Source: Hydnum rufescens UP504 (Eukaryota; Basidiomycota; Agaricomycetes; Cantharellales; Hydnaceae). From it: a stretch of 64,000 bases of DNA. Both the position numbers and the translations under genes were made by a program. Shown here piece after piece: positions 26,246-61,275 of this stretch. Under the pieces are notes generated by a model that had not been told where the DNA came from, searched no databases, and saw nothing but the letters and a program-made list of their open reading frames with translations. The stretch spans positions 88,139 to 152,138 of the forward strand of contig MU129066.1 of the NCBI GenBank assembly GCA_014904985.1, in the 5' to 3' direction. How positions within the stretch are numbered: position 1 is the first letter of the stretch; the number at the start of each line of letters is the position of its first letter.

Positions 26246-26253
26246 CACAATGG

Positions 26254-30490: not shown

Positions 30491-31977
30491 CAGGCTGGTC
30501 AGTCAAATTGGGGACCTAATTAGGTGCCATTTTCGGGGCAGAAAATGGTACCTAATAGGTCCCCAGACAGTATGGCCAAAATATGGCCATTCTGATTCAT
30601 TTCAGCTAATCCATGGCTGTGCTAGATTATTTATTTATTTACTATTATTTGTTCACTATTTATTATTATTATTATATACATATTATCCCCCCCCCCCTGG
30701 GGTTTGCCACTGCAGGGGGGGATGGTTCATGCAGGCCACACACCTGCATATACCCACCACACCCACCACAGCAGGTGGGGTTCATATGCCCCAGTTGGGG
30801 CCAGTTCCATTTGGCACTCCCTTGAGGGTGTGGGTTTTTGTTCATGGGGGCTCATTCATGGTTTTCGTTTGCAGTGCATCATTCAGTGGGTTTGTGGTTG
30901 GGGGTTTACACAGGTTCTGGTTCAGGATCTGGAGAAATTAAAAATGAAACATTAGTTTAACAGTAATGCAGCACAAAAAGAGCAGCTTATGCTGCTCTTT
31001 TTGTGCCACAAGAATAAAAAATAAAATGAAACAGAAACATACCTTGCAGTACCCCATGCCTGCTGCAGTGGGTGTGGGGTGCTGGGGCCCTGTACTCTGG
31101 CTCATATGGTGGGTTGTATGGGTCCTCCCTGCAGTTTTCATTTGTGGGGGGTTGTTTGTGGGTTTCATTCATGGGTTTCATTCATGGGTTTCATTTGCGG
31201 GTTTCATTTGCAGTGTGTCGTTCTGTGGGTTTGTGGTTGGGGGTTCATGTGGGTTCTGGCCAGGAGCTAGAGAAATAATAATAGGTTAGTTGAAAATGAA
31301 TGCAATGCAAAAAGAGCAGCATACACTACTCTTTTTGCACTACAAGAATAAGAAATACAAAAAATGGAACTTACTTTGTAGTACCCCACACCCACTGCAG
31401 CAGGTATGGGGGCTGTGTACTCCTGCTCATACATATGGTGGTTTGGACAGGTCCTCCCTGCAGTCATCATTTGTGGGGGGTTGTTCCCAGTTTTCATTCG
31501 TGGGGGGTTCATTCATGGGTTTTGCTCACAGCTGTCATTTGTGGTTTTCATTTGGCAGGTTTGTAGTCAGGGGGTTTGCACAGGATCAAGTCTAAAATCC
31601 AGAGAAATAGAAAATACATTAGTTAGAAATAAATGCATGCAAAAAATTAAAATAAAAAAAAACTTAGCTCATAGCACCCCACACCTGCTGCAGTGGGGGT
31701 GGGGTACACAGTCTTGCACAGGGCCTGTGCCCTCAGGCTCATATATAGTCTTGTGTGGCAGTTTGTGTGGGTACTCCCTGTGCCCCATCATTCAAGTGTC
31801 GACAGGGGGGGGGGGTTATGGGGGTTTTCACATCAGTATTCATTCACGCAGGAGGTGAGGACCTGTAATAGAAGCATATATGTTAGTTAAAAATTAAACA
31901 CTGCACAAAAAGAGCAGCTTTTGCTGCTCTTTTTGCGTGGGTGTATCTACTGGACTCACCTTATACAGGTACCACAC

Positions 31978-32198
31978 CTGCCATGGCGGATATGGTACCT
32001 GGGGTACTCATTTGGCATGGTTGTGTTACTGTTGGGCACATTACCATATGTCATGTCTTCATTTGGCATGTCCTCATTGGGCATGTTGCCATCTGTCACA
32101 TCATTTGGCATGTCTTCATTTGGCGCATTGCTGTTTGGGCCCTCATTTTGCAGGTTTTCATCATGCCTTGGATCCCAGGCCTCAATATAGAAAAATAC
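31978..32198 (-). CDS. FB-1 left-arm exon with open, repetitive coding frame
   Basis: On the minus strand an acceptor (branch CTAAC, then TATTGAG at about 32,186) opens a frame of about 73 residues. It is rich in Asn, Pro, Glu, Asp and Met, with repeats of M-P-N-E-D (NEDMPNDVTDGNMPNEDMP), and ends inside the palindrome before donor GTGAGT at about 31,967. No stop interrupts it. The FB-2 homologue at 51,590-52,020 is also largely open. A repetitive protein is therefore possible, though none of known function. Confidence 0.45.
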
Positions 32199-32388
32199 AA
32201 AATGTGTTAGTATAAAGATTCAAAAGAGTGCAAAAAGAGCAGCTTTTGCTGCTCTTTTTGTGCCATTGTATCTACTAGTAGAAAAACTCACTTTATGACC
32301 ACACACCTGTGGTGGCGGGTGTGTGGTCACATGCTTGCCTTTCCAGGCAGTTGTTTGTTGTGGTTTTGGAGATGAGAAGTAAGATGTG

Positions 32389-33041
32389 AAATTCAATGCC
32401 AGCAATTGCCAATACTCAAGAAGTGCCCAAGTGCTGATGCTTACAAGTACAATCCAGATTAATAGCAAGCATGTAGACATGGAATATAAAATATATAATA
32501 AATATTTGTTTAAAAATGTGAAGAAGAGGATGATAATGAGCCAGAGCTCAATAAGGGACAATATGCCTCATTGCAAAGTGGATTGGGTCACTTCCACACA
32601 TCAGAATTGGGCCAAATTTAAATATTGTGATGATATATACACACCCTATATGGGCAACTAATTATATTGGATGATTCTGGCATTTTTCAATTTTTCATGC
32701 CTTCAATTCCCTAAATAGGGAATTGAAGGCATGAAAAATTGAAAAATGCCAGAATTGTCCAATATAATTAGTTGCCCATATAGGGTGTATATATATCATC
32801 ACTATATTTAAATTTGGGCCAATTATGATGTGTGGAAGTGACCCAATCCACTTTGCAATGAGGCATATCATCCCTTATTGAGCTCTGGCTCATTATCATC
32901 CTCTTCTTCACATTTTTAAACAAATATTTATTATATATTTTATATTCCATGTCTACATGCTTGCTATTAATCTGGATTGTACTTGTAAGTGTCAGCACTT
33001 GGGCACTTCTTGAGTATCGGCAATTGCCGGCATTGAATTTT
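32389..33041. repeat. central palindrome of FB-1, two arms of about 325 bp
   Basis: The two halves meet near 32,715 at CCCTAAATAGGG and are inverted copies over the whole length with few differences. As a result the same 91-residue reading frame appears once on each strand (32,386-32,661 + and 32,768-33,091 -); it is a by-product of the symmetry. Since both outward arms start here, the palindrome could hold a pair of divergent promoters. That is inference. Confidence 0.95.
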
Positions 33042-34534
33042 GCAAGTATGCAGCCACACACCCAGCGACAGAAAGGCGAGCACATGACCATGACACAACA
33101 GCAACAGTAGCAGCAATAGAGGCAGCCTCAGCACATGACCATGACCACACACCCACTGATGCAGGTGTGTGGTCATAAGGTAAATTTTGTCTCAGTAGAT
33201 ACAATAGTGCAAAAAGAGTAGCACAAGCTACTCTTTTTGTGCCACTTTAAACTCTTATACTAACATAGCTTTTATTATTTTACATTATGGTCTAAGGCCT
33301 GAGACCAAAACCCACTGCACAATGAGGGCCTGAATGGCAAGAGTCAAACCAAAAGAAACAATGGACCACCCAATGGGTGGCCCCAGGAACCACACCCACT
33401 GTGGTGGTGTGTGGTACTATTTAAAGTGAGTTCCCCCCCCCCCAATAGATACCATGGCACAAAAGAGCAGCAAAAGCTGCTCTTTTTTGTGCAGGTTTTA
33501 AAAATTTTATTAACACTTTTATTTACTGCTTTAGGCCAAGCTGTCCCACCCACGAATGACACCCTGCATATGACCATGTGAATGGCCACATGTGAACAAG
33601 CAACAATGCCCACAGGAAGCCACAAAGAAGAGCAGGAAAACAGGGGCCACACACCCACTGCAGCAGGTGTGTGGCAATATAAGGTATGTAATTTTTTTTT
33701 AATAGCTCCAGTTGCACAAAAAGAGCAGCAGTCACTGCTCTTTTTGTGCAACCTTTGAATTTTAACTAATGTCTTAGTTTTCTCAGGCCAAGCTGTCCCA
33801 GCCCAATGTGCAAACCCATGCACTCAGGAGCCCAAACCCACCCACCCACCAGTATGCCAAAGAAACCCCCCCCCAAACAATGAGGCCTGATCAGTGAGGA
33901 CCCCAGCGGCAATGTGTGAACAGTGAACATGCCAAATGAAACCCAACCAAACAACCCAGCCAAATGACACCCAGCCAAACAAAACCATGCCAAACCGCAC
34001 AATGCCATACCCAATGAAATGACACCAAACAAAAATGTGAGAGGTGGCCATGCGCCACCTGAGTGACCATGCGAACCACACCCACTGCGGCAGGTGTGTT
34101 ATAATATTAGGTACATCTAATCCCACTGGTGCCAAAAGAGCAGCAGAAGCTGCTCTTTTGGCATCTCTGTTTTCTTTTTTTTTAACTAATGTATTATTAT
34201 TCATTGTTCTAGGTCCCTTCCATACATGAAATGACAATGCAACACACCAAGGAACACCCCCCAGATGAAACTCAGGACTGAGAATGCACAATGCAGGACC
34301 ACAGGGACCCCAGACAAACCACACCTGCTTTGGTGGATGTGATAATTCTAAGGTAAATACAACCACACAAAAGGAGCAGCATACGCTGCTCCTTTTGCAT
34401 GGCTTTGCTTGTTTTTTGTTTTTTTTTACTAATGTATTATTTATTATTCTAGGTTGTCATCTGGACTCACAACCCCCATGACCCCACCGAACAAATATGG
34501 GGGAATGGCAGCCCACCCACCTCAGACAGCTATA

Positions 34535-34700
34535 AGTCTGGTCCTTCTTAGGTAGCAAATCCCAGACATGTTTTGGTACCTAACTAGGTACTCGAGACTA
34601 TGGGGGCCCAAATGCACCCAATGATCATCCATGATGGGGGCCCAGTGGGGCCCAATGGGGCCCCAGAACTCTCACTTAAGATATTCTCTCTATTTAGTAT
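34535..34700 (-). other. KDZ-2-like element terminus and GGGCCC-rich subterminal region
   Basis: Read on the minus strand, a GGGGCCCC/GGGCCCC-rich stretch (34,605-34,680) is followed by ACCTAGTTAGGTACCA, a short loop, GCTACCTAAGAAGG and ACCAGAC. This is the layout of the KDZ-2 3' end (50,320-50,545). The gene ending at 34,845 on the minus strand lies about 310 bp inside this terminus; the KDZ-2 gene ends 331 bp inside its own. It probably marks the 3' end of a related element with a different gene. Confidence 0.5.
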
Positions 34701-34844
34701 AGGTACTGGGGGTTAACCAAATTAGCCAAAGTATGATGCAGAAATCAACAGTTTATTGCTAAGGAGGTACTGAGATCCTTAACCAAATTAACTAAAGCAT
34801 AGTAACTAATGTAGCCAAAATATAATCTGGAAATCAATGGCAGT

Positions 34845-36257
34845 TTATTGATATGGAGGCCAACTTGTAGAGTCACTCAATAAGTTGGTTGTTGCAAAGG
34901 ATGAGTGTGTGGAGAGATTGGCATCAAGAGAGGGATCAAATGGCATTTGACTTATCAAGCTCACTAAGGCATCAAGCTCAGCATCTGTGCCAAGATTGAA
35001 GTTTGGCTGAGTGAATGAACCTGGAAAAGGGGGGTCCCCCTCAATGTCTCCACCAGAGAGCAGTGGTACATTAGTCAGTTGAGCCACTGTACTGGGCGGA
35101 ATTGTAAAGTGGGGTTTGGGACATGGCTGTGAAGGTCCAGGAAGAGAGGTGTGCACTGGCTTGGAGGTATTGGACAATGTAGTTGAAGCATGATTGTACA
35201 GGCCATCAGGGCTGTCTGCCATATCATCTTCACTTGAAATAGTTGCTGCAGACTTTAGGGTCTTCTTTTGCTTTCCTTTATGCCCAACACCTGCAGCCCC
35301 CAGTAAACTTGCACCTCACAACTTCCTGTGCTTCCCTGTGTCATAAAGATCAGCATCCCCTTCACTATGCTTCACACCAAGCCCTGATGACCCCTCAGAT
35401 CCCTTCTTGGCCACAGAATCCCTCGCAGTCTGCAGAGATAGTATCACTGCACCCTCCCTATCTGTGATGAGTGCAATGTCATCTGCATCACTGTCTGGCC
35501 AGTTGTCTAGTTGAGAGACCCCTATCCTTTTATCAGGACTTGTCTCCTCAAGTGCAAAGTATAATGCTCTGAATTCATCAGTTGAGTGGCCATCAACATA
35601 GGAAGATCTGAAGTTGGGGAACTCGCAATCCAGGACAAAGTTTGTGATACTGAGTTTGTGCTGGATGAGAATCTTGGCCAGGTTAGTCCAAGGGAACACG
35701 GACATCTTGACAAAGGGCCTGAAAAGGCGAATTAAGTGATCCTTCACTGTGGTCCTGGTCTTATACACATTGCTGAGATCCTCATTCTGCTTTTTCAAAG
35801 TGTCCTCCTCCATAAATTCATGCAATTCCTGATATTGTGAGCACCACACAAGGATGAACTGATAGATATCAGCCAACTGCATTGGTATGTCAAACTTCAA
35901 GTGGTACCATGCTGCCATCTCTTCAGATCCAAGTTGACACTCATTCTGGGCATGTGCAGCAGGGGAGGCAGCATTCCCACTAACCATTATAATTAGCAAA
36001 TGGATATCCATAGTGGCAAGCCAGTGCATGTCATGCATCCACTTCTCCTTCTGGGAAGACATAATCTGCTCAATATCACCTCCAGATTGAGCTATCTGCT
36101 TGGCAGCTCCTGCCTTCACACCCTCATGTTCTGCAACCAGCCTTGCTGCTTCAACTGCCCACTCTTCAGTATCTTCACCTCTGAAGGATTGGATCAAGGC
36201 ATTGTATGCAGGTTTAACCATGTGTGCAGTATAGTCCAATGCAGTAACTAGAGTCAT
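34845..36257 (-). pseudogene. gene of unknown function, one TGA, with KDZ-like downstream end
   Basis: One minus-strand frame covers the interval, interrupted only by TGA at 35,316-35,318 (after KHRKL), where CGA would give Arg. The first 200 residues are helical (EHEGVKAGAAKQIAQSGGDI, MHWLATMDIHLLIIMVSGNA, FKTRTTVKDHLIRLFRPFVK region). Then come an acidic patch (DNWPDSDADDIALITDRE), a basic patch (GHKGKQKKTLKS) and a Ser/Pro/Leu tail. I recognise no domain. Upstream exons are likely, one at 37,048-37,638. The terminus at 34,535 suggests it is cargo, or the main gene, of a mobile element. Confidence 0.6.
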
Positions 36258-37047
36258 ATAGTGTTAGTACTTGGACCGAAGGGGACATGAATGGAGAACA
36301 AACACACCAGATGGATCTGTGTTAGGGTGGGACTGGCAGTACAAATATTGGAATGCATTGGGACTTGGATGGTGCTGCAGCCCCCAACAGCCCCAGATGT
36401 CCACAGATGTCCAATCCACAGTTACACTAGTGGTACCTGCAGGTTAAACCAAGTCAGGATTCTGATGGGGCAGAAAAAAAGATGTTGCATCTCATGGCAA
36501 GTCCCACTGAACTCAACACTGGGGTGGAAGTCCATTTAGGTCCATAATGCACACGGAAGTAGATTACTAGTTATAGTTTAAACTTGAGAGAACCTGGCCA
36601 TGGGTGAACTTGAGGAAAATAAGGGGGGACTTCCAGAAATGGAAATTTTTGACCTCTCGCACACAGGGGTGGTTCATATGGGGGATGAATGGAAAGTTGA
36701 TATAATGCTGGGGGGTACTGTAAAAGGTGACTTCCCAGATGTCCTGCATGGTTCATGTGGGAGCATTGGGTTGGGTGGATAGTTTGATCTCTTGATTTAC
36801 CCAGGTTTCGAACTGGGCAATGCCAAAAAGAACAGTAACTTATACTGTGTGACCCATTTTGCTGTGGCAGCAGACACAATAGCCAGTAATATTGGATGTA
36901 TATAATATCATCTTGATGCCAGGTGAGCCAAGTTCTCATCCTGATGTTGCTCTCAATGCCTGACCTTACTTGTACTAGTCAGACAGCTTAATGGAATGAC
37001 TGAACACATATAGAATCAATAAATTTGGACCAAACAATGAAGAAGTA
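36258..37047. other. no clear exon between two coding blocks
   Basis: The minus-strand frame at 36,571-36,939 looks like a shadow. The stretch probably holds introns and possibly short exons linking 37,048-37,638 to 34,845-36,257, but I could not place splice sites with confidence. Confidence 0.4.
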
Positions 37048-37638
37048 TCATACATCATTGAATTTTGGATACTGGGGACAATCTCTTGTCAAGTCCAGTT
37101 TGATATGCCAAGCAGAGGGATCTTTGGAGAAACCAAACATTTCATCTGCAACCAGATTGGTGGTGAGAGTGCTCCCAAAAGCTGCACTAGCCATCCAGCA
37201 TATGTGATGAATGACACTGTGAACTGGCCCTTCAGTAGGCCACATGGTGACAACAAAACCAGCACCAAAGGCACAATGTTTATGAGCACACATAAGGAGC
37301 TCCATGCAGTGAAGAGGAAGGTCAATGGAAGTTGGTGGTAATGAAGCAAGCTTTTGGATCAACCACTCTGTATCAAACTCAACACATTGAAGTTGATGCA
37401 ACCTGTTGAGCTTTGACACTGCAGGGCCAATTACAGGAGGGAAAGTGTCATAGCTGAGGAAGATATTGCCATAGGAAGCCCTGTCAGCATGTTCCTTCAA
37501 GTATCGGGGTGCCAGGTTCAAAAGGTCTTCAAGTTCCTTCCTAGTATGAGCATGAGCATAAGCTTGATCCACATATTCCAGATCCTTGTGACTTGTGAAC
37601 CGATCGGTGTAAGCAGGATTGTTATTGAACCAATCCAA
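37048..37638 (-). CDS. probable upstream exon of the unknown gene
   Basis: This 196-residue open frame has a natural protein composition, with YAHAHTRKELEDLLNLAPRY, RASYGNIFLSYDTFPPVIGP and SIDLPLHCMELLMCAHKHCA. No known domain is recognised. It lies upstream of, and on the same strand as, the frame at 34,845-36,257. The amino-acid style of both suggests one multi-exon gene. The start codon at 37,638 is only the first Met; the real start may be further upstream. Confidence 0.5.
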   Translation of the reverse strand: MDWFNNNPAYTDRFTSHKDLEYVDQAYAHAHTRKELEDLLNLAPRYLKEHADRASYGNIFLSYDTFPPVIGPAVSKLNRLHQLQCVEFDTEWLIQKLASLPPTSIDLPLHCMELLMCAHKHCAFGAGFVVTMWPTEGPVHSVIHHICWMASAAFGSTLTTNLVADEMFGFSKDPSAWHIKLDLTRDCPQYPKFNDV

Positions 37639-38269
37639 CTACTGTCCACGAGGTTGAGCCGGGGACAAAAGAGGGGACCACAGATCTAATCTGGTTGTTT
37701 AGGTTCGAGTGGAGGAAGGTCTTTTGGACAGGGGGAATTGCAGTGAGCCAACAAAGCCCAAGCAATTAAGTGAGAATGTGTATTTCAGTCAAATTACCAC
37801 ACCCTAAGAATCCCTTCTTGAGACCTTAGTCAAAGTGTAGTTGGAATTCGCTTTTTGTAGTGAGAAATCACCCAGGAACCAGCAGCTGTTCAAGGAGCTT
37901 CAAACTGGAGGGAGGGGGAGAACTAATGAATTTGTGTGCTAGCTGCACCTAATATACAATCCAGACTTCGACTCAATAGAAAGTGAAAAAGTCGGACTTA
38001 AGGGACACACAGAGAAAAAAAAATCAAGTTAAAATATTCAAAACTGATGGAGATATTCCAATTTCAAGATAAAAGGGGAGATTGACACATTACATGCTAT
38101 TCCTCCTTCAAACATGGACAAGTTCCCTTAAGGAAAAGTGGAATAGGTCTCCCTGAGGGTCTTCTCCATCGGACATAAGAGGGCTGGAAGTAATTCGCTA
38201 TTTTGAATGGTGGAGCAAGGGGGAGTCATGGGGAGGGGGTTGTCTTGTGAAAAATGGAGTTCACGTCCG

Positions 38270-38540
38270 CTCGTTTTTCCCTTGGTACCGTTCGATGCGC
38301 ATTTTTAACAGCTCTCAGGGTGTGGTACTTGCGAACAAATCAGATAAGAATTGGCTTCGAAAATCAAGAAATACTCCTTCAGAGTATGAATCATGGCAAG
38401 ATATTGTTACAGGGACCGCATTTTTGATCCGTTCATTTTGTGTTTGGTACCGTTCGATAGGTACGATTCGTATCTTTCTGGGCGCGGTCGTTTCGAGTCG
38501 ATCCGATCAAAAATGATGGAGAAATTCGAAAAATACTCCT
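38270..38540 (+). repeat. GGTACCGTTCGAT-type repeat units outside the 1.67-kb repeat
   Basis: Two units of about 150 bp begin with TTGGTACCGTTCGAT (38,283 and 38,446). Each is followed by TTTCTGGGCGCGGTCGTT or a variant, and by GAAATTCG/AAATACTCCTTCAGAG. They match the units in the 1.67-kb repeats at 9,058-9,445 and 25,740-26,110, so the unit is dispersed on its own. Confidence 0.75.
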
Positions 38541-38599
38541 TCAGAGCAGTGCAGCCCCTATCTGGATCATGTGACAAATCCGCGAGTCCAGAATTGGAA

Positions 38600-39069
38600 C
38601 TAGGCCTGGTCCGCGTCGTTACATAATCACAATTCATCGCCCTTAAGGCAATAGGATAGCTTGGAAGAGCAGGCAAGTCATCCAGTCTTGAGGAAAGATG
38701 GCAAGTTGAATTGCCTTGTCCAAGGAAAATGGACTTGAAGTAGGGCATAAACTGCCCCTTTTTGATGAGGACTGTTGAAGTCCGACGGATAGTCAATAAA
38801 TTGACTGGTGGACATGGTAAAGGAATGAGGCGATATTATGGGTTGGAAAGGGGTAGGAATCCAATTGATTTCTTGAATAAACAAATGGCGATAAAATTAA
38901 ATGAACGCGGTGTCATATAATTGATTCGTTCGTAGGGAAAATGGACCTCGGATGAGGATTCTATGGTGTAGGGATTTATCCCTCCAACATTGGATGGTGC
39001 ACTTGGTTCATCAATTGTGTTGACTCCAACCTCTGCGCCATGAGCCCTGCGCCACCCTTGTAAAACATC
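38600..39069. other. no gene seen
   Basis: This gap between the repeat units and the large minus-strand gene has no recognisable coding region, apart from a possible coding-like continuation of that gene at 38,930-39,069 (VGVNTIDEPSAPSNVGGINP) beyond its stop. Confidence 0.4.
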
Positions 39070-42000
39070 TCACAATTCATCATGTTTCTGCTGACTTTTT
39101 AACAGTAACTGGACATTTATTTTGGTTTTCCAGCATAGTCTTCTAGAGGCAATAACCTGTGGGTACAGATCTAGCCAAACCTCAGGCTCCTTGAAGCCAT
39201 CTGGAAGGGGACCAACATCAATGGCAAACCACTGGCCAAGTTTGACAGGCTCATGAGCTGCTCCAGTCATTTCAGCAATGGGACCAGAAACAACACTAGG
39301 ATGAGCAATGATCCTATGAGAACCACTAATGGGTTCACCAGGACCACTGGCAATCATTGTTCCAGAACCAGTTACATGACTTGGATTGCCATGAGAAACT
39401 GCTGAGTGAATCAAGATTATAAGAAATAAGGATAACTCTCTAGGGTGAGATGTTAACATACAATTAAAACCTCATCCCACAGCTTGTCTAGCACCAAGAG
39501 GGGAAGTGGGAATCATAGGATGTGTGCCCAATGCATGGCGCTGCTGTGAATTATCCCTCCAATCATCATGCACAGGTGCCCTTGGGTCATGTGCCAACCT
39601 TCTCCCTCCTGAAAACACTGGTCGCTCATCCCTCTGCATCGGATGTGCCCAATTGCATGCACAAGGATACGCATTGTCCCAATGAGGATGAGACCCAGGT
39701 GAACGGGAACAGGGATCATGGTCACATGGCCTATACTGGTCTTCATGCAGAACATGGTGAGACGCATTGAAGCCTGTACTAAGGTGGGAACAAGGGGGGG
39801 AGTGAGGAGGTGAATGCAAATGCAAATGATGAGAATGGTAATGAGAACGAGAATGAGAATGGGGATGGGGACAGGGATGGGGACCAGGACCAGGACCAGA
39901 ATGAGAGGGTGAATAAGATTGTGTAGAAGGATGTGAATAAGTCTCAGTCTGAAATTGGCCAATGTGGTTCACAGGCGAAGTCTGTTGCCCATCAAGAACA
40001 CTGGGGGAAACCTGTGGAGGCAAAGAATTTTGAATGGTAGGAACAGTGACAGATTTAGTCTGAGCTCCCCCCCCCCATGTCCTCTAGCTCCAAAAAGTAA
40101 GAATTGGGTGACAGAGAGACTATAAGGGAGGGGAAACAAAGGGGCTCTTTCTGAGCAATTGGAGCCAGTGTAGATGGGGGAAGTGCAGACTCACATAAAA
40201 AGGATTCTTGTGGACTGGACTCAGGAGTGGGCTGGTGAGGTGTGGGCTCAGGGGTGGGCTGGAAAGGTGTGGGCTTGGGGGAGGGCTCATGAGGTGCGGG
40301 CTTGTGAGTGGGCTTGTGAGGTGCGGGCTCAGGGGTGGGCTTGCAAGGTGTGGGCTTGGGGGTGGGCTCATGAGGTGTGGGCTCTGGAGTGGGCTTGTGA
40401 GGTGTGGGCTTGGGGGTGGGCTTGTGAGGCATGGGCTCGTGAGTGGGCTGGGAAGTGGGCTCTTGAGGCATGGGCTCAGGAGGAGTGGACTCCAGGGGTG
40501 TGAGTCCAGGTGAAGTGATGTGAGTCAGTAAGGTTGAAGCAGGCTGGGGGGGACAATGGGGGGAGGCAGTTGGGGGCTTCTGGTGGTGGAGGTTGAGAAC
40601 TTGAAGACAACCCTAACCCAGAGCCACTGGCAACCTCAGCGGCCTTGGCAGTTTTGTAGGCAGTGAAGTGTCTGTGATGTTTCGCTTCATTCCTTGCTGC
40701 ATTATCCCTGCCAGGAACTCTCCACTCTGCTATGATACATGCATCAAACTCACTTAACTTCTTCTTCTTCTTCCCAATGGCTCCATGCAGCCTATGTTTC
40801 ACCTCATCTAGAGCAAACATATTGCCATCCTTTTCTCGCTGCATTAAGTCGCAAGCATCTCTTGCAGCAACAGCCATCCACTCATCCACTGCAACTTTTG
40901 CTTGCCTTAGCTTGTTGAACCCAGCCTTGCGCCATGCCAGATAATCTTCATACAGCTCACCTCTGATTGACTGGACATAATCAGGTAGCCTTTCTTCTTC
41001 TTCTTCTTCCTCATCATCATCTTCTCCTCCATTCCAGAATGCATCCATTTGCTCTACAGTGGGTGGAGGCTCTGCAAACAACCTGGGCCACAAAGGGGGA
41101 TGCATATCCCCCCTGAATGTGTCTGGTGGTGGTGATGGTGAGGAGGTGACTGGAGAACCGAGAAGAGAATCCTGCAATGAGTGTGATGATGTGCGTGAAG
41201 GTGAGGGTGATGGCAGAGGTGAATGTGAACCCAGACGTGATGAATAAAGTGGAGGGGGAGTGAAGGGCCCAGCACCAAATATTTGATGAAGAGAAGTATA
41301 CATGTGAGAGGAAGGGGATGTTGGACCATTGGAGAAAAGCACATTGAAAACTGTATCTTCCATACTCATGCCAAGAGGTACCCCAGGATAGGAGGTTGGA
41401 GTGATAAACCAAGGAGAGGGGCAATCATGCTCTACGATGAGCTGCACGCAAAGATCATGATAGGCTATGTTGTTGCCTTTCTTCTCCAGAGTAGCCTGCA
41501 GCTCCTCTCGACTGAAGTGATCACCCAACTGTTGAGTGGCCTTGACATCCATTGGGCAATCTCCAAACCAAATGCCCCACAATGGTAATCCATGCGATAC
41601 GAAATTCATGAGCCAGGGCCCCATTGCTGAATGCAGATACATCATTCCAATGAGGTTGTCATTGACCCCAAAATGAGGATGAGGGTGGTGAGGCATGGAA
41701 CAAATATGATCAATACACATGTGCATAATCATATTGGCCAAAGCACCATATTTGTATGTGGCATGCAGAAAATTGTTGACTAATTGGCCCATAGCCTCGC
41801 AATTATTCATCATAGATGACAACAGATTGACAGTAAACAGGGAGTTGGCCAGGATTTGGGGCCCCACGAGGTGGACAATATTAGACATTTGTTTGTCAAG
41901 GTCCATCTTTTGGGCAACCAACCACCAGTTCTTGTACCAAGTATGCCTATCACTGATAAAACCCTCGAAATGTTGTTGACAGGAGTCGGTCAGTTGGACA

Positions 42001-42257: not shown

Positions 42258-42331
42258 AACACTCCATTCAATCCATCAGATAATGGGGACTGGCTTGCTA
42301 TCATCATATGTCCTCTGATCTAGCATAAAAT

Positions 42332-44123: not shown

Positions 44124-44320
44124 ACATTCATGAATTCAAGCACTGGGATAGGAGAAGCCACTAATGTTAATGATGATTCATCTGAAAACAAGGATTAATT
44201 CTATATGGGATACAAGGGCCATGGTCATATAAGTATGAAGTACTATAATACTATTTTGGGGACCCCCATATTAAAAGTACCATAAACACTATTTTCAGCA
44301 ACAATTTTTCTTCTCAACCA

Positions 44321-44857: not shown

Positions 44858-44906
44858 TTATGTACTACATGGTCAATGTGTACCTCTGATTTAGGCCTAG
44901 TAAAAT

Positions 44907-45740: not shown

Positions 45741-46426
45741 GACTTTTGAGGGATCTCAAATCAAGCATGAATAAAGCCTGAGAACAAATAAACCTACCTG
45801 GGGATGCCACCAGATGCAATAAATGCGCATTTCAAGGCAACAACAGAAGGCAACGAGATGAGCTAACCCATACAGCCAGAGAAGACTGAGAGATTGGTTC
45901 CATAAGTGCACATGAAAGTTTTCAGAAATACTGGGTATTCCGTCAATGAAGACATATTGCTTCCTGGAGAAAAATGAGAATGAGAGGATGGGTGACTTGA
46001 TGAGAAGTACCTGGTCACATTGGAGGACATGATCAGCCAAGGCTAACACTTGGTGACCATGTCCCCACTATGAAAGATGCAACAAGGCATCTAAAAATAG
46101 AGGATATCAGTGAACAAGGTACTTAGAAGGCAAAGGTATGGAGGGCTACAAACTGGTAATTCCTGTAGGGAGTGTCAAATTTTTGACAGTGGGAATTTCT
46201 GAATGCCTCTCCACATCAGCAGAGACTTGCATTGCGGCTTTGCCTGCATTTGTGTGCCTTCTCAATGGACTTCTTTCTCAGCATCCACAAATTCACCTGC
46301 TGCAGAGACGTACATCTAGGTTTGTGATGATTTCAGACTGTTATTTTAACTACTCATCTCTCATCCCAAAGAAACAGGCACTGCCTACTGAGATCTGTTC
46401 ATTAAAATCTCTTTTCGTCCCATGGT

Positions 46427-46880
46427 GATGAAGGACATGCTTGGCAGCAAAGTCTGTGTTGTGTGCCTTCTAGACCTGTTCATCACACCCTCTTTTCAAC
46501 ACAAGGTGGTGGAGGACATGCTCCATGGCCAAGTCTGTGTTGTGTGCCTTCTAGACCTGTTTATCATGCCCTCTTTTCAATGCAAGGTGGTGAAGGACAT
46601 GCTCAATGGCCAAGTCTGTGTTGTGCACCTTCTAGACCTGTTCATCATGCCCTCTTTTCAACACACAGTGGTGAAGGATGTGCTCAATGGCCGAGTCTGT
46701 GTTGTGTGCCTTCTAGACCTGTTCATCACACCCTCTTTTTAATGCATGGTGGTGAAGGACATGCTCAATGGCTGAGTCTGTGTTGTGCACCTTCTAGACC
46801 TGTTCATCATGCCCTCTTTTCAATGCATGGTGGTGAAGGACGTGTCTAGCAGCCGAGTCTGTGTTGTACACCTTCCAGAC
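46427..46880. repeat. 81-bp minisatellite, about 5.5 units
   Basis: Five and a half units of 81 bp start near GGTGAAGGACATGCTCAATGG and contain TTCTAGACCTGTTCATCA. Because the period is divisible by three, two + strand frames remain open across it; these are not taken as genes. Confidence 0.9.
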
Positions 46881-48741
46881 ATGTTCCTTTGTCACTAAAC
46901 TCGGTACTCCTATAATCACCAAATCCCTTGCAGCACAATGAACACAACCATGAAGTGATTGATTCGCAAACAAAGCTCTACTTCATTTCCATCATCCTCA
47001 CAGCTCTCTGTCAATCCCTCTGTATCCATGGCACCGACTACTCATCCCAGGTGCCCTCGTTCCAAATTCCTGAATGCTAAAGTCGTGGGTGAAGCACCCA
47101 GTGGGGTGATCACCAGTCTCTCAAGCAGGAAGCAGTCCACTGCCAAACCATCTACTCAGTCAACATATATTGAATCATATCCTCTAAATCTTGACTTCAA
47201 GCCAGACATGGCCCCAGCCCCCATCCATCTTGAGCCAGACAAGCTCTCCCATCATGCATGACAGAAGCATGCACAGGCTCACCGGTGGGGTAACGATGTC
47301 CTCCCATCTCTCATTTGTCTGTTTATGAGTTTCCAAAGAGAGCAGAATGCTGGGGCCCGGGTTGATTTGACAACTGATTGCTGTCTGTGTCCAGAACATC
47401 ATTGCTTGCTGAAATTGGTTTGTGTCCATATGGAGTATCTGGAGGATATCAAGTTGGTTATTTGCTCTCATCGCCCTGTGGGAATCCAGCTTGTTTGTCA
47501 GGGGTTCTTCCCTTGCTCTCCATTAGCTCCAACTTTTGGCTGTGAGCTTGGATATGCTTGAGTTTGTGTGGGATCTGTTTGTAAATATGGCACCTAATGA
47601 ACGAGCATGGGCAGCAGCCCTTATGAAATATCTCAAGGCTTGCAGGCATGAATTTGCCACTGGGGATTCCCTTTGTCGATGATTTGCCAATGCTCTTGCT
47701 CATTACCAAGTTCTTGTTTGACTGGTGAAGGCAGAAATGACCAAAATTACCAACTTCTTCTGTGAATCATTGAACTCCACTGTTCCCATGGTCCCAGGGT
47801 GTTCCTCCCCTCTTGTGCCTCTGCTTGATGAAAGAACCCTGATCCTGGCTTGAGTATATGAAAATGCCCATAATTCCACTGGACCTACCAAAGTTGATGG
47901 TGCTCCAGAGTGTCCAAGCCCATATTTGCAATCTCGCTGTGCTCTTTGTTTTGGAGGGAGCCATGCAACCAATCTCCAAGCCAGTGTCATCATCTGCATA
48001 GATGCAAATTTTCAACTCAAACACAATCATGACAAGGACAGAAGGAAAGGTTTTGAGGGTCAGATGGGCAGCAGGGATCTGGAGATATACTCTCCAAGGA
48101 TGGTGGAGCTCCTGCAGGCAGAGCTTGATGCAATGGCTGCTAGGATCAATGAGATCCAACTGACAAGGAGGGCCACAGCTGGAGCCGGCAGGAAGCGGAA
48201 GGCCAATGAGCTGGTAGAGGATGACAGAGGTGAACCAGGTGATGATGATGCTGTTGAACCAGGAATGAATGTACCAAATTCTGTTCTTGATATCTGTGGT
48301 GACTCGTTCATTGTGGCAGATGGTGATTGCATTAAGGCCTCTACTCAATGCTTTGATGACACTGGGCTGATGGCTATGCTTTGTTGGCATGATATTCCAA
48401 TCTACATTGCCAATATGTGTACTGTGGGTGAGAAGCAGTTCTATGCCTTTGCCCTCATCTCTGCCCTCCTCAGGGATCTACCTAGTGATTGGACAGTTGG
48501 GCTGCTGTATGACATAGCCTGTCAAATCCATTGTAGTCTCCTCAAGTGGAACATCATGCCTGAATGGACAGGACACATTGAGTTCGGTGTATCAGTTTTC
48601 CATGCATACAGCCACCAATGGACTTGCCAGCTTTGGTACCACCCCAGGAAGTCAGAAAAATGGGGGCTGTCTGATGGTGAAGGTTGTGAGAGATTCTGGA
48701 GTGAGCTCAGGCGACTTATTCCTGGTCTGCAGGTCACTGGG

Positions 48742-48802
48742 GTATGTACATTCACTTGCTAAGCCAGTGTTAATAAGATATACTGATTATTGGTATTCTT
48801 AG
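48742..48802 (+). other. 61-bp intron in KDZ-2
   Basis: Donor GTATGT follows V-T-G and acceptor TTCTTAG precedes Y-H-R. The position matches the 55-bp intron of KDZ-1. Immediately after it a TGA (48,812) replaces the second Arg of the conserved Y-H-R-R-L motif. Confidence 0.85.
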
Positions 48803-49817
48803 TATCACAGATGACTGTTCATAATTGATCTCCAAGTGGAGCATATAGATGAGCTCAAACAGGAGGCCACAGGGAAGTGGCTTCATGATTGTGTGTTGCG
48901 CACCATGGGACATGAGGCCATGGCTGAGGAAAAACTTGGTGAAGACTCAATTGACTATCTCTTGGACCAGTTCAAGGAGCAGCACACTTTTCGGAGTGGG
49001 CCAGTCCCTTGGCAGTCAAAGACAAAGGGATTGCGTGCAATAGAACACATTCTGTCTATGTCCCAATCTGCAGACTCACTCAGGGTACATCTAAGGGAGC
49101 TTACTGATGAGCTTGCAGGCCTTGTGACAGATACTGGAATGGTTGCATTGGAGGATGAGCTGCAGTTGAAGATTACTGAGATAAGGGCTAGTGTGCAGTG
49201 TCTTGAGAGTAATATTGCAAAAAAGACAGAGGAGCTTCATCTTTCTGATCAAAAGTCCCACAAGGAGTTGGAGTGGTTAAAGACCAACAAGTGGATAAAC
49301 CTCCAACTGAATATCAGGGTTGTGAGAGACCAGCTCCTGATGAAGCTTAGAGCATGTAAATTTGAGCTTGCAGGGCTAGAGCATGCAGACACAAGTTGCC
49401 AGCTGGACCACAAGACTAAGGAGCATGTGGAAAAGGCAATGAAAGGTCATGTCTCTGGGATTCAAGCAACACTTAAATGCTATGAAGATATCCAAAAACA
49501 GATGATGAAGCTTAGAGGGAAAGGGAATGTTGCAAGGGATGCATATATCCCTCCAGAAATTTCATCATCAGTGTACAAGCTTGATGTAGATGAAGATATT
49601 TGGCAAGTGCCCCATCATGAGGATATGGCAAATTTTCCAGGTGGGAAGGTACCTGCATGGCTTGCAGACAAGGAAGTCTGTAGTGGCATCTGGCATGCTC
49701 AGGAGCTGGTGAACTGCTGTGAGGAGCTCAGATGCTGTAAGGCAGAACTCTCCAACCTAAGGTCTTGGTTTTCAATGCAATGTGTTGCTACCCAGTGCAC
49801 TGTTGATCTCTGCAATG

Positions 49818-49879
49818 GTGTGTGGTCCTTCTGACTTGACTAGATTATTGTAAACTAACAGCTGCTGGGATTTTAACAG
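49818..49879 (+). other. 62-bp intron in KDZ-2
   Basis: Donor GTGTGT follows L-C-N, and acceptor TTTTAACAG, with ACTAACAG upstream, precedes the frame leading to IELHWLHDLVDTW. KDZ-1 has a likely intron at the corresponding place (about 5,960-6,010). Confidence 0.75.
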
Positions 49880-50319
49880 ATGAAGATGTTAAATTTTTTG
49901 CCTTGATAGAGCTACACTGGTTGCATGACCTTGTTGATACCTGGCAACATCACACTACTGGGCTTGCTGGTAGTGATGGGCAGCTGGATTGGGGGAACAT
50001 TCCAGACTGGCCACCTCCTTTAAGGAGGGCATGGGTCTGCCGGCAAGGGAGAGTACAAGCAGAGAAGGATTTATCCCCTGGGGAAGGGGAAGAGGGGGAT
50101 CTGGGAGCAAGTTCTGATGATGATGATGAAAATGGCAAGTTAGAGGAGCAACCTGAGCTAGAAGATCTCACATTCTTAACCTCTCTTGATCTTGTTCTTG
50201 GACATGAGGATTAACCCTTTCATACTTGACATAATGTACCATTCACATTAGACACTAAAAATGAAGGTTTTGGCCAGTATACTGCAATATACTATGTTCA
50301 GAAAACAAAGTTTTGAAAG

Positions 50320-50545
50320 GTCATGTAGTGGGGCCCCATTTGGGCCCCAAGTGATGTGGAAAATATGAAAGAGCATCAAGGGCACATTTTGGGGCCACAA
50401 TGGGGCCCCACTTACTCTCATTTTCCAGTATTGAATACCAATTGGCACCCCCATGGCACCCCATTGTTGCTAGACCTAACTAGGTATCAAATATTGCCTG
50501 ATATATGATACCTATCATAGGTAGGAAATATGGTTGACCAGCCTG
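50320..50545 (+). other. KDZ-2 3' terminus with palindromic subterminal blocks
   Basis: GGGGCCCC-type palindromes (50,332-50,415) are followed by ACCTAACTAGGTATCA (about 50,472), a loop, TGATACCTATCATAGGT and finally TGACCAGCCTG (50,535-50,545). Read inward, the end is CAGGCTGGTCA, a 12-base spacer, then ACCTA-N-TAGGTAYCA ... TGRTACCTA-N-TAGGTCY. The left ends of FB-1 and FB-2 have the same plan and share the first 11 bases. No 5' partner terminus of KDZ-2 was found in the window. Confidence 0.65.
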
Positions 50546-50632
50546 GGCCCACCCACCAAACAGAACCCACAGACAGCAATGAGTTGAAACTGCAACCCAA
50601 GGCCCAGACGAACCCCACACCCACTTCGGCAG
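50546..50632. other. 87-bp spacer resembling an FB exon
   Basis: Between the KDZ-2 terminus and the FB-2 left terminus lie 87 bp that look like right-arm FB exon sequence (CCCACCAAACAGAACCCAC, GACAGC). They end in the first half of a CACACCC palindrome (CCACACCCACTTCGG) that is cut off by the FB-2 terminus. It suggests that FB-2, or its terminus, joined into an older FB-type sequence. Confidence 0.45.
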
Positions 50633-51529
50633 CAGGCTGGTCAGTCACATGGGGGACCTAATTTAGGTACCACTTTCAGGGCAGAAAATGGTACCTAATA
50701 GGTCCTCCAGACCTTATGGCCGAAATCAGGCTATTCCAATTCAGTTTTTGGGCCATCTATTGGCCAATCCATGGCTGTCCCAGATTATATATTTATTTAT
50801 TATTATTTGTTTGCTATTTATTATTATTATTATTGTTACTACTATTATTATATACATATTATGCTATATACATATTATCCCCCCCCCCTGGGGTCTGCCA
50901 CCACAGGGGGGGATGGTTTATGCAGGTCATGCACCTGCATATACCCACCATGCCCGCTGCAGTGGGTGGGGTTCATACACCCTGATTGGGGGCCAGTTCC
51001 ATTTGGGTGCTCCCTTGAGGGGGCCGGTTTTCATTTGTGGGGGCTCATTCATGGCGTGTTGTTCAGTGGGTTTGTATTTGAGGGTTTGTGCAGGTTCTGG
51101 GCTAGGATCTGAAGAAATAAATGAGAAATGTTAGTTAAACATTAATGCAGCGCAAAAAGAGCAGCTTATGCTGCTCTTTTTGTGCCACAAGAATAAGAAA
51201 TAAAATAAAAAATAAAATAAAACATACCTTCTAGTACCCCACACCCACTGCAGCAGTGTGGGGTACTGAGGCCATGGGCTCTGGCTTGTACATACAGCAG
51301 TTCGTATGGCAGTTCGTACAGGGGCTTGCACAGGGGCTTGCACAGGTGCCCTGTTGTTCAGGCACCCTGTCATTCAGGTGTCGATAAGGGGGTTATGGGG
51401 GGGGTTTGTGTCAGTATTCATTTGCAGGGGTTGTTGAGACCTACAGAATAAAAGTTGTAAATTAGTTGAGAATTAAAAACCATGCAAAAAGAGCAGTTTT
51501 CGCTGCTCTTTTTGCATGGCTGTAGCTAC

Positions 51530-52022
51530 TGGGCTGGGGACTTACCTTATATAGGACCACACACCCGCCATGGCGGGTGTGTGGCCTCATTTGGCATGGT
51601 GCCATATGTCGTGTTGTTGGCACAGTGCCATATGCCACATCATTGGTGCAGTGCTGTAGGTCATGTTGTTGGTTTGTTGGTGTGTGTTGCATCATTGGTG
51701 CACTGCCATAGGTCACGTTGTTTGGCGTGTGTTGCGTCATTGGCGCGCTGCCATAGGTTGCGTTGTTTGGCATGTGTTGCATCATTGGCATGCTGCTGTA
51801 GGTCACGTTGTTTGGCGTGTGTTGCATCATTGGTGCGCTGCCATAGGTCATGTCATTTGGCATGTGTTGCGTCATTGGCACACTGCCATAGGTCACATCG
51901 CTTGGTGTGTGTTGCATCGTTGGCATGCTGCCATAGGTCATGTTGTTTGGCGTGTCTTCACTTGGGGCATTGCCGTTTGGGCCCTTGTTTCACATGTTTT
52001 CGTTGTGCCTTGGACCCCAGGT
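51530..52022 (-). CDS. FB-2 left-arm exon with 45-bp (15-residue) coding repeats
   Basis: On the minus strand about eight units of 45 bp encode T-P-N-N-V-T-Y-G-S-A-P-M-M-Q-H with substitutions, in a frame open from 51,941 down to the donor GTAAGT at about 51,540. The exon ends in the palindrome (HTRHGGCVVLYK). Upstream of 51,941 the frame has one TGA. A multiple-of-three period alone keeps a frame open, so protein expression is possible but unproven. Confidence 0.45.
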
Positions 52023-52230
52023 CTCAATATAGAAGAATACAAGATATATTAGTAAAAAGATTCAAGGGAGTGCAAAAAGAGCAGCGAAAGCTGCTCTTTT
52101 TGTGCCATTGTATCTACTAGGGAGAACACTCACCTTGTGACCACACCCCTGCAGCAGCAGGTGTGTGGTCATGTGCTTGCCTTTCCAGGTGGTTGCTTGT
52201 TTTGGTTGCGGAGATATGAAGGAAGATGCG

Positions 52231-52880
52231 AACTCAATGCTGGCAATTGCCAGTATTTAAGAAGCGCCCAGTGCTGACACTACAAGCACAGTACACATTA
52301 ATAGTAAGCATGTAGATGTGAAATAAGTACTATATAATAAATATTTGTGCAAGAAAATTCTAAGAAGAAGAAGATAATGAGTCAGAGCTAAATAAGGCAT
52401 GATATGGCTAATTGCAAAGTGGATTGGGCCACTTCTATGCATCAGAATTGGCCAAAATTTGAATATATTAATGGTATATATTTACTCTACATGGGCAACA
52501 AGTTATATTGGATGTTCTAAGCATTTTTCAATTTTTCACACCTTCAATTCCCTAAATAGGGGATTGAAGGCATGAAAAATTGAAAAATGCCCAGAATGTC
52601 CAATATAACTCATCACCCATGTAGAGTAAATATATACCATCAATATATTCAAATTTTGGCCAATTCTGATGCATAGAAGTGGCCCAATCCACTTTGCAAT
52701 TAGCCATATCATGCCTTATTTAGCTCTGGCTCATTATCATCCTCTTCTTCACATTTGGAGACAAATATTTATTATATATTATATATTCTATGTCTACATG
52801 CTTGCTATTAATCTGGATTGTACTTGTAGCCTCAGCACTTGGGTGCTTCTTGAGTATCAGCAATTGCCAGCATTGAATTT
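52231..52880. repeat. central palindrome of FB-2
   Basis: Two inverted arms of about 325 bp meet near 52,555 (CCCTAAATAGG). The sequence is clearly related to the FB-1 centre, including the TATTTATTATATA and GAAGAAGA segments. The arms differ from each other by scattered changes. Confidence 0.95.
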
Positions 52881-55359
52881 CACAAGTACACAGCCACACC
52901 CAGCAACCACACGACCATGACACAACAGCAACAGCAGCAACAGCAGCACCAGCCCCAGCGCATGACCATGACCACACACCCGCTAATGCAGGTGTGTGGT
53001 CATAAGGTAAGTTTTGTCTCAGTACATACAATAGCACAAAAAGAGTAGCCCAAGCTACTCTTTTTGTGCCACTTTGAAGTCTTATACTAACATAGCTTTT
53101 ATAATTTTAGATTATGGTCCAAGGCCCAAGACCAAAACCCACTGCACGACAAGGGCCCGAACAGCAAGAGCCAGACCAAAAGAAATGACAGACCGTGGCC
53201 CCAGGAACCACACGCCCACTGCAGCAGGTGTGTGGTATGATTTAAAGTGAGTTCCCCCCCCCCAATAGATACCATGGCACAAAAGAGCAGTGAAAGCTGC
53301 TCTTTTTGTGCAGGTTTTAAAATTCTTACTAACACTTTCATTTACTCCTCTAGGCCAAGCTGTCCCACCCACGAATGACACCCCACATACAACCATGTGA
53401 ATGGCAACACATGAACAAACAAACAGCGACAACACCCACAGGAAGCCATGAAGAAGAGCAGGAAAACAGAGGCCACACACCTGCTGCAGCAGGTGTGTGG
53501 CAATATAAGATATGTAATTTTTTTTAATAGCTCCAGTCATGCAAAAAGAGCAGCAGTCACTGCTTTTTTTGCATGACTTTTGAATTTTAACTAAGTTCTT
53601 TCAGGCCAAGCTGTCCCAACCCAATGCGCAAACCCACACAGTCAGGGGCCCAAACCCACCCACCCACCAGTATGCCAAAGAACCCCCCCCCCCGAACAAC
53701 AAGGCCCAATTGGCCAGGACCCAGCAGCAACCCATGAACCATGAACATGCCAAATGAAACCCAACCAAACAGACCCAGCCAAACAAAACCACACCAAACC
53801 ACATGATGCCATACCCAATGAAACAATGCCAAACGAAAACACGGGAGGTGGCCATGCAAACCACACACCTGCTATGGCAGGTGTGTGGTAGTATTAGGTA
53901 CATCTCTAATCCCACCGGTGCCAAAAGAGCAGCAGAAGCTGCTCTTTTGGCACCTCTGTTTTCTTTTTTTTTACTAATGTATTATTATTCATTGTTCTCT
54001 ATGTGAAAACCCACCTGACGAGCACATGGACGAGCCCCCAGTACATGCAGTCACCCAAGCCCAGAGTGCCCGCCCCCTGAACACGATGATCGATGACATC
54101 ATGTACCACACCCGCTGCAGTGGGTGTGTGGTAATACCTTGTAAGTTTTCAATTATAGGATGTAGGAAAGCACCAAAAGAGCAGCAGAAGCTGCTCTTTT
54201 GGTGCTTCCTTTGTTTTTTTTTAAAAATTAACATGTTATTTACTGATTGATCCGCCTCCCAGTGCAAAAGCTACCCACAACCTGATCCAAGAGCCCAGTG
54301 CCTGAACACCCGCATGTACACAATGATGGATGAAATACAGTACCACACACCCGCTGCAGCAGGTGTGTGGTAATAGCTGGTGAGTTTCTAGTACAATGGC
54401 ACCCAAAGAGCAGCAGTAGCTGCTCTTTGGGTGCTGCCTCTGTTTTTTTTTTTTCAAACTAACGTTTTATTGATTATTCTAGGTCTCCCCTCGATGCACA
54501 AAACCCCACCCAACAAGAACACTGATGGAAAACCAATGTGTGCAGCCACCCACAACCCAATCCAAGAACACACAACCGCAAGCCAAAATGAGTACCACAC
54601 ACCCACTGAAGCAGGTGTGTGGTACTACAAGGTATTTTTATTGTATTTTCTATATCTACAGTGGTGCGGAAGGAGCAGCCCAAGCTGCTCCTTTGAAAAT
54701 TTTTTTTACAAATGTATGCTATTATTTTAGGATTCAAATTCAAGCCCCCGAGATGACAACCTGTGACCTGCGACTTGTCCAAATGACCCACCCAATGGTG
54801 AATCATCAAGCCCAGCCCCCTGTACCACACACCCACCCAAGCGGGTGTGTGGTGCTACTTAGTTTTTTTTTAATTTTTTTTAATTTTGAGCAATGGTACC
54901 ACACCCACCCAAGTGGGTGTGGTGCTGCTAAGTAGTCCATGTTTTTTCTTTTTGATTTGTATAGACAGTACCACACACCCACTAGGATGGGTGTGTGGTG
55001 CTACTTATTTTTGTTTTTCATTTTGAGGGATGCATATAGGCCCAAGGTGTATATTGAATTTTTAAATAAATAAATCAATAAATAAACAAGTCAATGACCT
55101 GGGGATGTATAATATAAATAATTATAAATGGAACTATCCCCAATATGCCCATATGGCCCACTGCAAGTCTGAGATTCTCTAAGTCCCAGATTTGGCCAAT
55201 TTTCGGCCAATTTTCAGCCATTTCAGCCAACTCTGGGCCAGAAGGTGTGGACTGTAAAATGGCCATTTCGGCCAGAATAGTGATGGGACCTACTTAGGTA
55301 CCATTATTTGCCCCAAAAGTGGTACCTAACTAGGTAGGCTTAGATGACTGACCAAGGTG

Positions 55360-57955: not shown

Positions 57956-57957
57956 TG

Positions 57958-59464: not shown

Positions 59465-59465
59465 T

Positions 59466-61267: not shown

Positions 61268-61275
61268 GTGGTATC

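Follow-up and report, generated by a model that had tools for sequence, protein, structure and literature searches.

Large non-autonomous DNA transposons that resemble miniature inverted-repeat transposable elements (MITEs) are non-coding, reach high copy number and are mobilised in trans. Non-autonomous DNA transposons, introner-like introns and foldback elements are all already known. Among the KDZ transposons, an excerpt of Kojima 2025 (PMC12730594) describes Kyakuja as having 5′-CA..TG-3′ ends, 7 bp target duplications and no terminal inverted repeats (TIRs), and Zisupton and Dileera as having 8 bp duplications. We analysed a 64,000-nt stretch of contig MU129066.1 of the fungus Hydnum rufescens UP504 (the window, to which positions refer unless another locus is named) together with the genome (63.2 Mb, 539 contigs). 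The window carries two elements, FB-1 and FB-2. Both are members of one abundant family of mobile DNA transposons, and their interior is a divergent array of exon-like and intron-like cassettes with a hairpin in each part. With moderate confidence, we read them as non-autonomous transposons moved by KDZ transposases, in which a two-way promoter would drive two divergent, spliced, hairpin-bearing noncoding RNAs.

The cassette parser looked for two hairpins at the right distance, and splice signals were no part of the selection; the presence of hairpins in parsed cassettes is by construction, and hairpin-free exons and introns are uncounted. The first parse gave 190 cassettes from the window and 20 loci. 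The second, with a slightly altered exon pattern and six copies added, gave 240, of which 126 were non-redundant. On the sense strand the order was U-poor exon, exon hairpin (CCACACACC...GGTGTGTGG), short spacer, donor (AAG/GTRAGT), intron hairpin, U-rich stretch, CTAAY and YAG. The exon hairpin has 12 core pairs plus some outer ones and lies ~10 nt before the donor; the distance from its end to the donor was 7-13 nt in 156 of 163 cases, with a mode of 9. The intron hairpin (AAAGAGCAGC-N4-GCTGCTCTTT, outer pairs variable) has 12-18 pairs, spans about 36-40 nt and lies between donor and branch site. Element introns had a median length of 105 nt. The U fraction was 0.11 in the 60 nt before the exon hairpin and 0.44 after the intron hairpin.

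The splice signals were strand-specific. Among the 126 non-redundant cassettes, CTAAY followed the intron hairpin in 110 (antisense, 1; shuffles, 21.5), and donor GTRNGW was present in 83 (antisense, 19; shuffles, 17.5). The bases preceding these 83 donors, which were not selected, were A, A and G in 64, 75 and 67 cases, respectively. YAG followed the branch motif in 104 cassettes, and 70 had donor, branch site and acceptor together under strict patterns. Donor consensus, branch site and YAG are ordered on one strand, as in spliceosomal U2 introns. A genome-wide hairpin-only pattern had 2,020 exact matches, from which an independent sample of 54 distinct cassettes was taken (from the first 55 in contig order); GTRNGT lay 7-11 nt after the hairpin in 47 of the 54, and in none on the antisense strand. 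In all 11 copies tested, minus-strand cassettes lay left of plus-strand ones, so that the arms point outward. Six copies were compared in 30 ordered pairs, counting only stretches with at least 55% local identity. Conservation was 0.90 for the acceptor, 0.86 for the branch site, 0.85 for the exon hairpin and 0.91 for the intron hairpin; it was 0.72 for the rest of the intron and 0.76 for linkers. We infer from these signals that the arms are transcribed and spliced as predicted.

These results bear on a first-pass annotation of the window, which had proposed tandem exon-intron-like cassettes in two divergent arms. The cassettes and their arrangement stand, with strand-specific splice signals far above chance. 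The three introns that it named have GT...AG at the exact coordinates: 53007-53110 (+), GTAAGT...TTTTAG; 33684-33786 (+), GTATGT...TTCTCAG; and 31267-31374 (-), GTAAGT...TCTCTAG. A palindrome does close the exon, but its sequence, given as CACACCC...GGGTGTG, is corrected to CCACACACC...GGTGTGTGG. In two other copies, L062 and L063, several right-arm exon hairpins share an AGTA loop and similar linkers, as if these cassettes had been re-amplified within the arm.

Comparison of fetched copies gave CAGGCTGGTCAGTC...GACTGACCAAGGTG as the family ends. The genome contains 318 exact copies of CACCTTGGTCAGTCATC from the right end and 321 of AGGCTGGTCAGTCA from the left end, the latter count taking in other families with like starts; the reversed controls gave 0. 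Exact target duplications of 7-8 bp were found at 7 of 14 end pairs (four of 7 bp and three of 8 bp): GATGTTC, TTTCAGAA, AAGCTCC, GACAGCT, AGATGATG, AGTTTAC and AGGTCATC. One further pair had an 8 bp duplication with one mismatch. Nine copies with both ends measured 4.5-4.8 kb, with pairwise identity of 68-96%; another, L067, is 6.9 kb long and has a perfect 7-bp duplication.

The outer limits of 30491..55359 proposed for the two elements proved exact, 30491 and 55359 being terminal bases. A correction concerns FB-1, whose right end is absent from the window: a 16 kb KDZ element cuts it after 34521, and where it resumes, at 50547-50632, FB-2 is inserted. The features are as follows.

30491..34521, no strand: main part of FB-1, with left terminus CAGGCTGGTCAGTC at 30491; it stops at the KDZ element, the insertion point being taken from an uninterrupted homologue, L023
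30491..30504, plus strand: FB-1 left terminus CAGGCTGGTCAGTC, the end whose AGGCTGGTCAGTCA was counted genome-wide
30510..30564, no strand: FB-1 subterminal palindrome GGGGACCTAATTAGG...GGTACCTAATAGGTCCCC, read from the sequence; its core is the inverted repeat 30519-30556
31267..31374, minus strand: FB-1 left-arm intron example, GTAAGT...CTAG, from the cassette parse
32389..33040, no strand: FB-1 central palindrome, proposed two-way promoter; 325 nt arms (32389-32713 and 32716-33040), 96% complementary, with a 2 nt spacer
33647..33674, plus strand: FB-1 right-arm exon hairpin example CCACACACCCACTGCAGCAGGTGTGTGG, from the cassette parse
33684..33786, plus strand: FB-1 right-arm intron example, GTATGT...TCAG, with its hairpin at 33711-33752, from the cassette parse
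34522..50546, no strand: KDZ element inside an FB-1 exon; the empty site is in L023, and the right end is CAGGCTGGTCAACC in reverse complement
47854..48762, plus strand: open reading frame (ORF) of 302 aa with a KDZ transposase domain (PF18758, E = 1.7e-47)
50547..50632, no strand: FB-1 resuming on the right side of the KDZ element, until FB-2 interrupts it; 91% identical to L023 5706-5785
50633..55359, no strand: the whole of FB-2 (4727 bp) with both termini, CAGGCTGGTCAGTC at 50633 and GACTGACCAAGGTG ending at 55359
51109..52168, minus strand: FB-2 left arm, three recognised cassettes; exon hairpins begin at 52168, 51584 and 51263, with an intron after each
52332..52779, no strand: FB-2 central palindrome, proposed two-way promoter; arms 52332-52554 and 52557-52779, 87% complementary, with three outward CCAAT motifs per side
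52972..54730, plus strand: FB-2 right arm, seven recognised cassettes; exon hairpins begin at 52972, 53208, 53473, 53861, 54104, 54343 and 54595
53007..53110, plus strand: FB-2 intron example, GTAAGT...TTAG, with its hairpin at 53034-53069, from the cassette parse
54824..54999, plus strand: where the FB-2 right arm ends, three further hairpins of the exon type that lack an accompanying intron hairpin, beginning at 54824, 54898 and 54970
55288..55359, no strand: FB-2 right subterminal palindrome (55288-55335) and right terminus GACTGACCAAGGTG (55346-55359), the end whose CACCTTGGTCAGTCATC was counted genome-wide

The segment L023 5706-5785 directly follows the part of L023 that matches window 34300-34521, and GCCCACCCACC is repeated at 34511-34521 and 50547-50557, flanking the KDZ element; the right limit of this element (~16 kb) is more certain than the left. 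FB-1 and FB-2 aligned with 83% identity over 2.1 kb, and FB-2 was 93% identical to two further copies, L028 and L029. The parser, which demands both hairpins, recognised 10 cassettes in FB-2 and 7 in FB-1. Degraded ones are also visible, and the earlier count of nine to ten per element was fair. The ends of the last introns of both FB-2 arms were read directly from the sequence. At 55360-61495, abutting the right end of FB-2, lies a segment with inverted 220-bp repeats (98% identical) at its ends; it carries RNase-H and DUF4100 domains on the minus strand, and its 220-bp repeat recurs in three loci with other FB elements (L021, L023 and L034).

Both hairpins varied between cassettes in a paired manner. 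Intron pair 8 was A-T in 102, G-C in 21 and other in 3 of 126 cassettes; of 112 cassettes, 84 had A-T and 13 had G-C at exon pair 13. Exon pair 14 was A-T in 30, T-A in 16 and G-C in 16, and unpaired A.A in 32. Over all pairs, double-change cells numbered 112 in the intron hairpin and 107 in the exon hairpin, against a shuffled mean of 56 each. CpG-prone pairs were set aside, since they can look compensated when both of their sides decay. In the remaining pairs, the intron hairpin had 50 such cells (mean of the shuffles 10.7, maximum 21), the exon core 15 (mean 1.5, maximum 6) and the four outer exon pairs 60 (mean 27.7, maximum 42); relatedness among cassettes survives this control of 500 shuffles, and the figures are supportive and not probabilities. 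Exon and intron hairpins both covary between cassettes, also apart from CpG sites. The exact intron hairpin had no match in viral contigs.

The central palindromes seen in the first pass were confirmed in both elements. An ungapped script run on ten copies found central arms of 52-285 nt in eight of them; in L061 and L065 this script found no long central palindrome. Complementarity was 87-99% in three copies measured. Outward CCAAT motifs numbered two or three on each flank in six of ten copies (three in five; two in L067) and one on each flank in two of ten, the two sides of a palindrome not being independent in these counts. The layout suggests that the central palindrome is a duplicated, two-way promoter. 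AATAAA signals at arm ends do not tell sense from antisense in all copies, and no claim is made for them.

The termini point to KDZ transposases as the source of mobility. At least 154 KDZ transposase domain matches were found in the genome (150 of 584 candidates scored) and none in 14 control genomes. Two left ends, on contigs C5 and C57, lie 1.8 and 2.7 kb from a KDZ domain and begin with CAGGCTGGTCAGTCA, the same 15 bases as the FB ends; they were picked by eye from listings, with the KDZ domain less than 3 kb away, and each was taken as one element with its domain by nearness only. Past the shared 15 bases these ends differ in sequence and have their own subterminal palindrome of the same kind. 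The end of the KDZ element in the window shares 11 nt with the FB ends. All 14 end pairs examined have the form CAGGC...AGGTG, and the duplications are of the lengths known from Kyakuja, Zisupton and Dileera. The left end (CAGGCTGGTCAGTCA) and right end (CACCTTGGTCAGTCA) share an inverted TGGTCAGTCA; because Kyakuja is reported as TIR-free, our assignment stops above the level of KDZ subgroups. No KDZ transposase of the kind that autonomous elements encode was found in the FB arms and ORFs examined. Given these termini, the short inverted TGGTCAGTCA aside, and no transposase found, we class them as putative non-autonomous KDZ elements. KDZ transposases encoded in the same genome are likely to mobilise the elements in trans, because the two ends near KDZ domains share the first 15 bases. 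On contigs C1-C6, none of the seven KDZ domains that could be judged against the cassettes listed lay within 10 kb of an exact cassette.

Several further observations concern KDZ sequences. L040 4800-5633 and L035 4159-8612 have ends like the KDZ-near ones (CTTTTCCACATCATATTAGATAT...) with cassettes nearby, and cassettes may be present in more than one KDZ-type family. Pieces of the KDZ element region (window 37608-38989) recur with 81-93% identity at L023 6225-7437, inside the right part of another FB-type element; they are either a shared gene fragment or a nested insertion. The best named homologues of the window transposase are from H. rufescens UP504 itself (85% identity over 64% of the query). 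An 81-bp tandem repeat of 6.2 copies at 46382-46886, mostly in open frame, lies ~1 kb before its ORF. Among the matches listed, most interrupted KDZ domains have TGA stops and not TAA or TAG, the pattern that CpG decay of CGA codons would produce.

These features suggest how the elements might work. KDZ transposases would move FB-1 and FB-2 in trans, the palindromic two-way promoter would drive two divergent noncoding RNAs, and each arm RNA would be cut into short exons by a series of ~105-nt introns. Host introns were put at 40-65 nt, with a median of 56, in 11 hand estimates made from gaps between neighbouring protein matches; a twelfth gap, with one profile position missing, was ~110 nt and is less certain. 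Element introns are about twice the host length, and the hairpin makes up most of the difference; its folding would bring them near host length and may thereby permit efficient splicing. The 28-nt exon hairpin and the 7-13 nt spacing centre this hairpin near -23, and an excerpt of PMC4509934 places the exon junction complex at -20 to -24. The exon hairpin may occupy this site and keep the complex off an untranslated RNA. In Cryptococcus, according to an excerpt of PMC5851062, poorly spliced transposon RNAs feed a spliceosome-coupled RNA interference (RNAi) complex; the host genome here has domain matches to Mago nashi, Piwi and RdRP. With such RNAi and exon-junction-complex proteins in the host, the earlier idea that splicing serves to hide the element is possible. 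Both hairpins together might let the RNA escape intron-coupled RNAi and decay, and the escaped RNA might, as a speculation, keep the element transcribed and accessible to transposase. A bolder version is possible but doubtful: an RNA-centred selfish device whose only product would be the pair of divergent, hairpin-studded spliced RNAs. With exon hairpins on the junction-complex site and intron hairpins that tune splicing, this pair would defeat nuclear RNAi and nonsense-mediated decay (NMD), to its own benefit and perhaps, in trans, to that of KDZ transposons.

A number of results weigh against the proposal of spliced, hairpin-bearing RNAs from a KDZ-moved element. Six of 14 end pairs, FB-2 included, had no target duplication; these pairs are possibly nested or mispaired. 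On contig C124, 1.9 kb separates a cassette from a KDZ domain, and a coding element that carries cassettes is possible there. CpG-prone pairs hold 62 of the 112 intron and 32 of the 107 exon double-change cells. Exon stems had 126 A.C against 86 G.U mismatches, opposite to what RNA pairing predicts. This A.C excess is located at two CpG pairs (105 vs 56; non-redundant, 61 vs 32), and the other exon core pairs gave 11 G.U vs 12 A.C in the non-redundant set. CpG decay in linkers was about even (66 G>A vs 61 C>T, L029 vs FB-2), which leaves the excess at exon CpG pairs unexplained. Intron stems leaned the opposite way, with 299 G.U vs 159 A.C; in the non-redundant set, pairs 1-13 had 44 vs 20 and pairs 14-16 had 67 vs 63. 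Exon hairpins had no stability advantage in the sense strand (sense vs antisense, 56 vs 66, p = 0.11), and intron hairpins were slightly stabler in sense (63 vs 52, p = 0.011). Loops flip between copies (GAAA in L028, TTTC in L029); thus, DNA-level hairpin events occur. A strong strand bias of UNCG loops was dropped as a claim: it stood at 45 vs 5 in the redundant set and 14 vs 4 in the non-redundant set, and was weak, at 9 vs 5, in the independent sample.

The remaining points of this kind concern splicing and conservation. The first-pass annotation had named, as a refuting result, donor and acceptor motifs conserved no better than random positions of the unit. The outcome was mixed: acceptor, branch site and hairpins were conserved above linkers and the rest of the intron, and the donor hexamer, at 0.78, was barely above linkers. 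Non-cassette sequence (ends and centre) reached 0.83, about equal to the exon hairpins. The lineage of FB-2, L028 and L029 has multiplied despite a lost acceptor in the fourth right-arm cassette. When exons were joined into a 381-nt query and 40 of 530 candidates were scored, no spliced retrocopy was seen: a few alignments ran past a junction, by 11 nt at most, and were taken as chance.

A first alternative is that the hairpins serve RNAi, being processed into small RNAs either as a decoy or as precursors for element or host, with splicing secondary. Two kinds of stable, covarying hairpin in every recognised cassette would suit such a role, as would the RNAi domain matches in the host. However, the stems are short (12-18 bp), and small-RNA production has no need of the narrow distance between exon hairpin and donor. 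An Rfam scan of 30-56 kb with E up to 0.5 gave six weak matches, none of which reached the gathering score. We regard this alternative as unlikely.

The cassettes might instead be introners that reside in a transposon, the hairpin intron being the mobile unit and the element a nursery for introns that spread to genes. Fungal introner-like elements and sister stwintrons are, in an excerpt of PMC8469720, repeated introns with inverted repeats or stable structure. In the FB family the exon hairpin is conserved along with the intron, and the mobile unit has its own termini and target duplications. These findings make the introner explanation quite unlikely.

It is less likely still that the palindromes act as DNA, as sites for transposase or host factors or as extruded hairpins of a foldback-like element, with splice signals as a by-product. 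The frequency of palindromes, the loop flips and the lack of a G.U excess over A.C in exon stems agree with a role in DNA, and tandem repeats at transposon ends can be secondary transposase sites (excerpt of PMC3573991). A DNA-level role, however, does not account for signals confined to one strand (donor, 47 vs 0 of 54; branch, 110 vs 1 of 126) or for exons that are U-poor and introns that are U-rich on that strand only. The stems also covary instead of holding one binding sequence.

FB elements are without a recognised protein. ORFs exceeded the 95% level of composition shuffles in only 2 of 18 predicted spliced arms from 9 copies, some of these arms retaining unremoved introns; the longest ORF in L067 was 172 aa. 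Twelve window ORFs of at least 130 aa overlap FB-1 or FB-2, and the 10 that were scanned had no Pfam match. A protein search with one spliced left-arm translation found no homologue. The earlier idea of an intron-rich gene pair thus gains no support in a protein-coding sense, and that the arms are decayed coding genes with many short exons is most improbable. In its favour are those two arms and a 45-bp (15-codon) minisatellite in left-arm exon 2, whose short PNDATYG-like translation recurs in three left arms (L028, L029 and L063). Against it, the lengths of the exons do not preserve phase, no continuous frame is common to the seven left arms inspected by eye, and hairpins are conserved as linkers drift.

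Elsewhere in the window, direct repeats of 1.7 kb (92% identical) at 7902-9578 and 24543-26249 surround DUF4100 and RNase-H-type reverse-transcriptase domains. This unit is probably an ~18 kb long terminal repeat (LTR) retrotransposon with long LTRs.

If splicing is confirmed, the ~two thousand natural cassettes amount to a comparative experiment on how structure near splice sites acts on splicing, on loading of the junction complex, on nuclear RNAi and on decay. A second consequence would be that selection can maintain a complex spliced noncoding interior in a transposon that has no protein, which raises the question of what the RNA does for the parasite. Should the RNA-centred device prove true, it would be a new transposon strategy built from splicing architecture and not from a protein. 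The copies span a range of ages, from young and CpG-rich ones to decayed ones, so that these claims are checkable against age.

Our literature search found no transposon whose conserved interior is a divergent hairpin-exon/hairpin-intron array, and we know of none. Compared with the large MITE-like elements, the FB family is far longer (4.5-6.9 kb) and has a conserved, elaborate noncoding interior. Its 5′-CA...TG-3′ ends are like those given for Kyakuja in the excerpt of PMC12730594, with duplications of 7-8 bp here and 7 bp there; unlike that TIR-free group, its ends carry the inverted TGGTCAGTCA. Autonomous KDZ elements differ in that the FB interior has no recognised gene and consists of hairpin-exon/hairpin-intron cassettes in two divergent arms. 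Foldback and Galileo-type elements, as described in the excerpt of PMC3573991, likewise are large and have inverted arms with internal repeats. However, terminal inverted similarity in FB elements is limited to the short end and the subterminal repeat, the long palindrome is central, and the repeats bear strand-specific splice signals. The class of foldback element assigned in the first pass is therefore wrong; the ends are short and KDZ-like, with exact duplications at half of the end pairs. Fungal introner-like elements and internally symmetrical (stw)introns, in the excerpt of PMC8469720, also form families of canonical introns of the U2 type that contain inverted repeats or fold stably; those are introns of host genes, stwintrons being without target duplications, whereas the FB introns are arrayed inside a transposon and accompanied by conserved exon hairpins.

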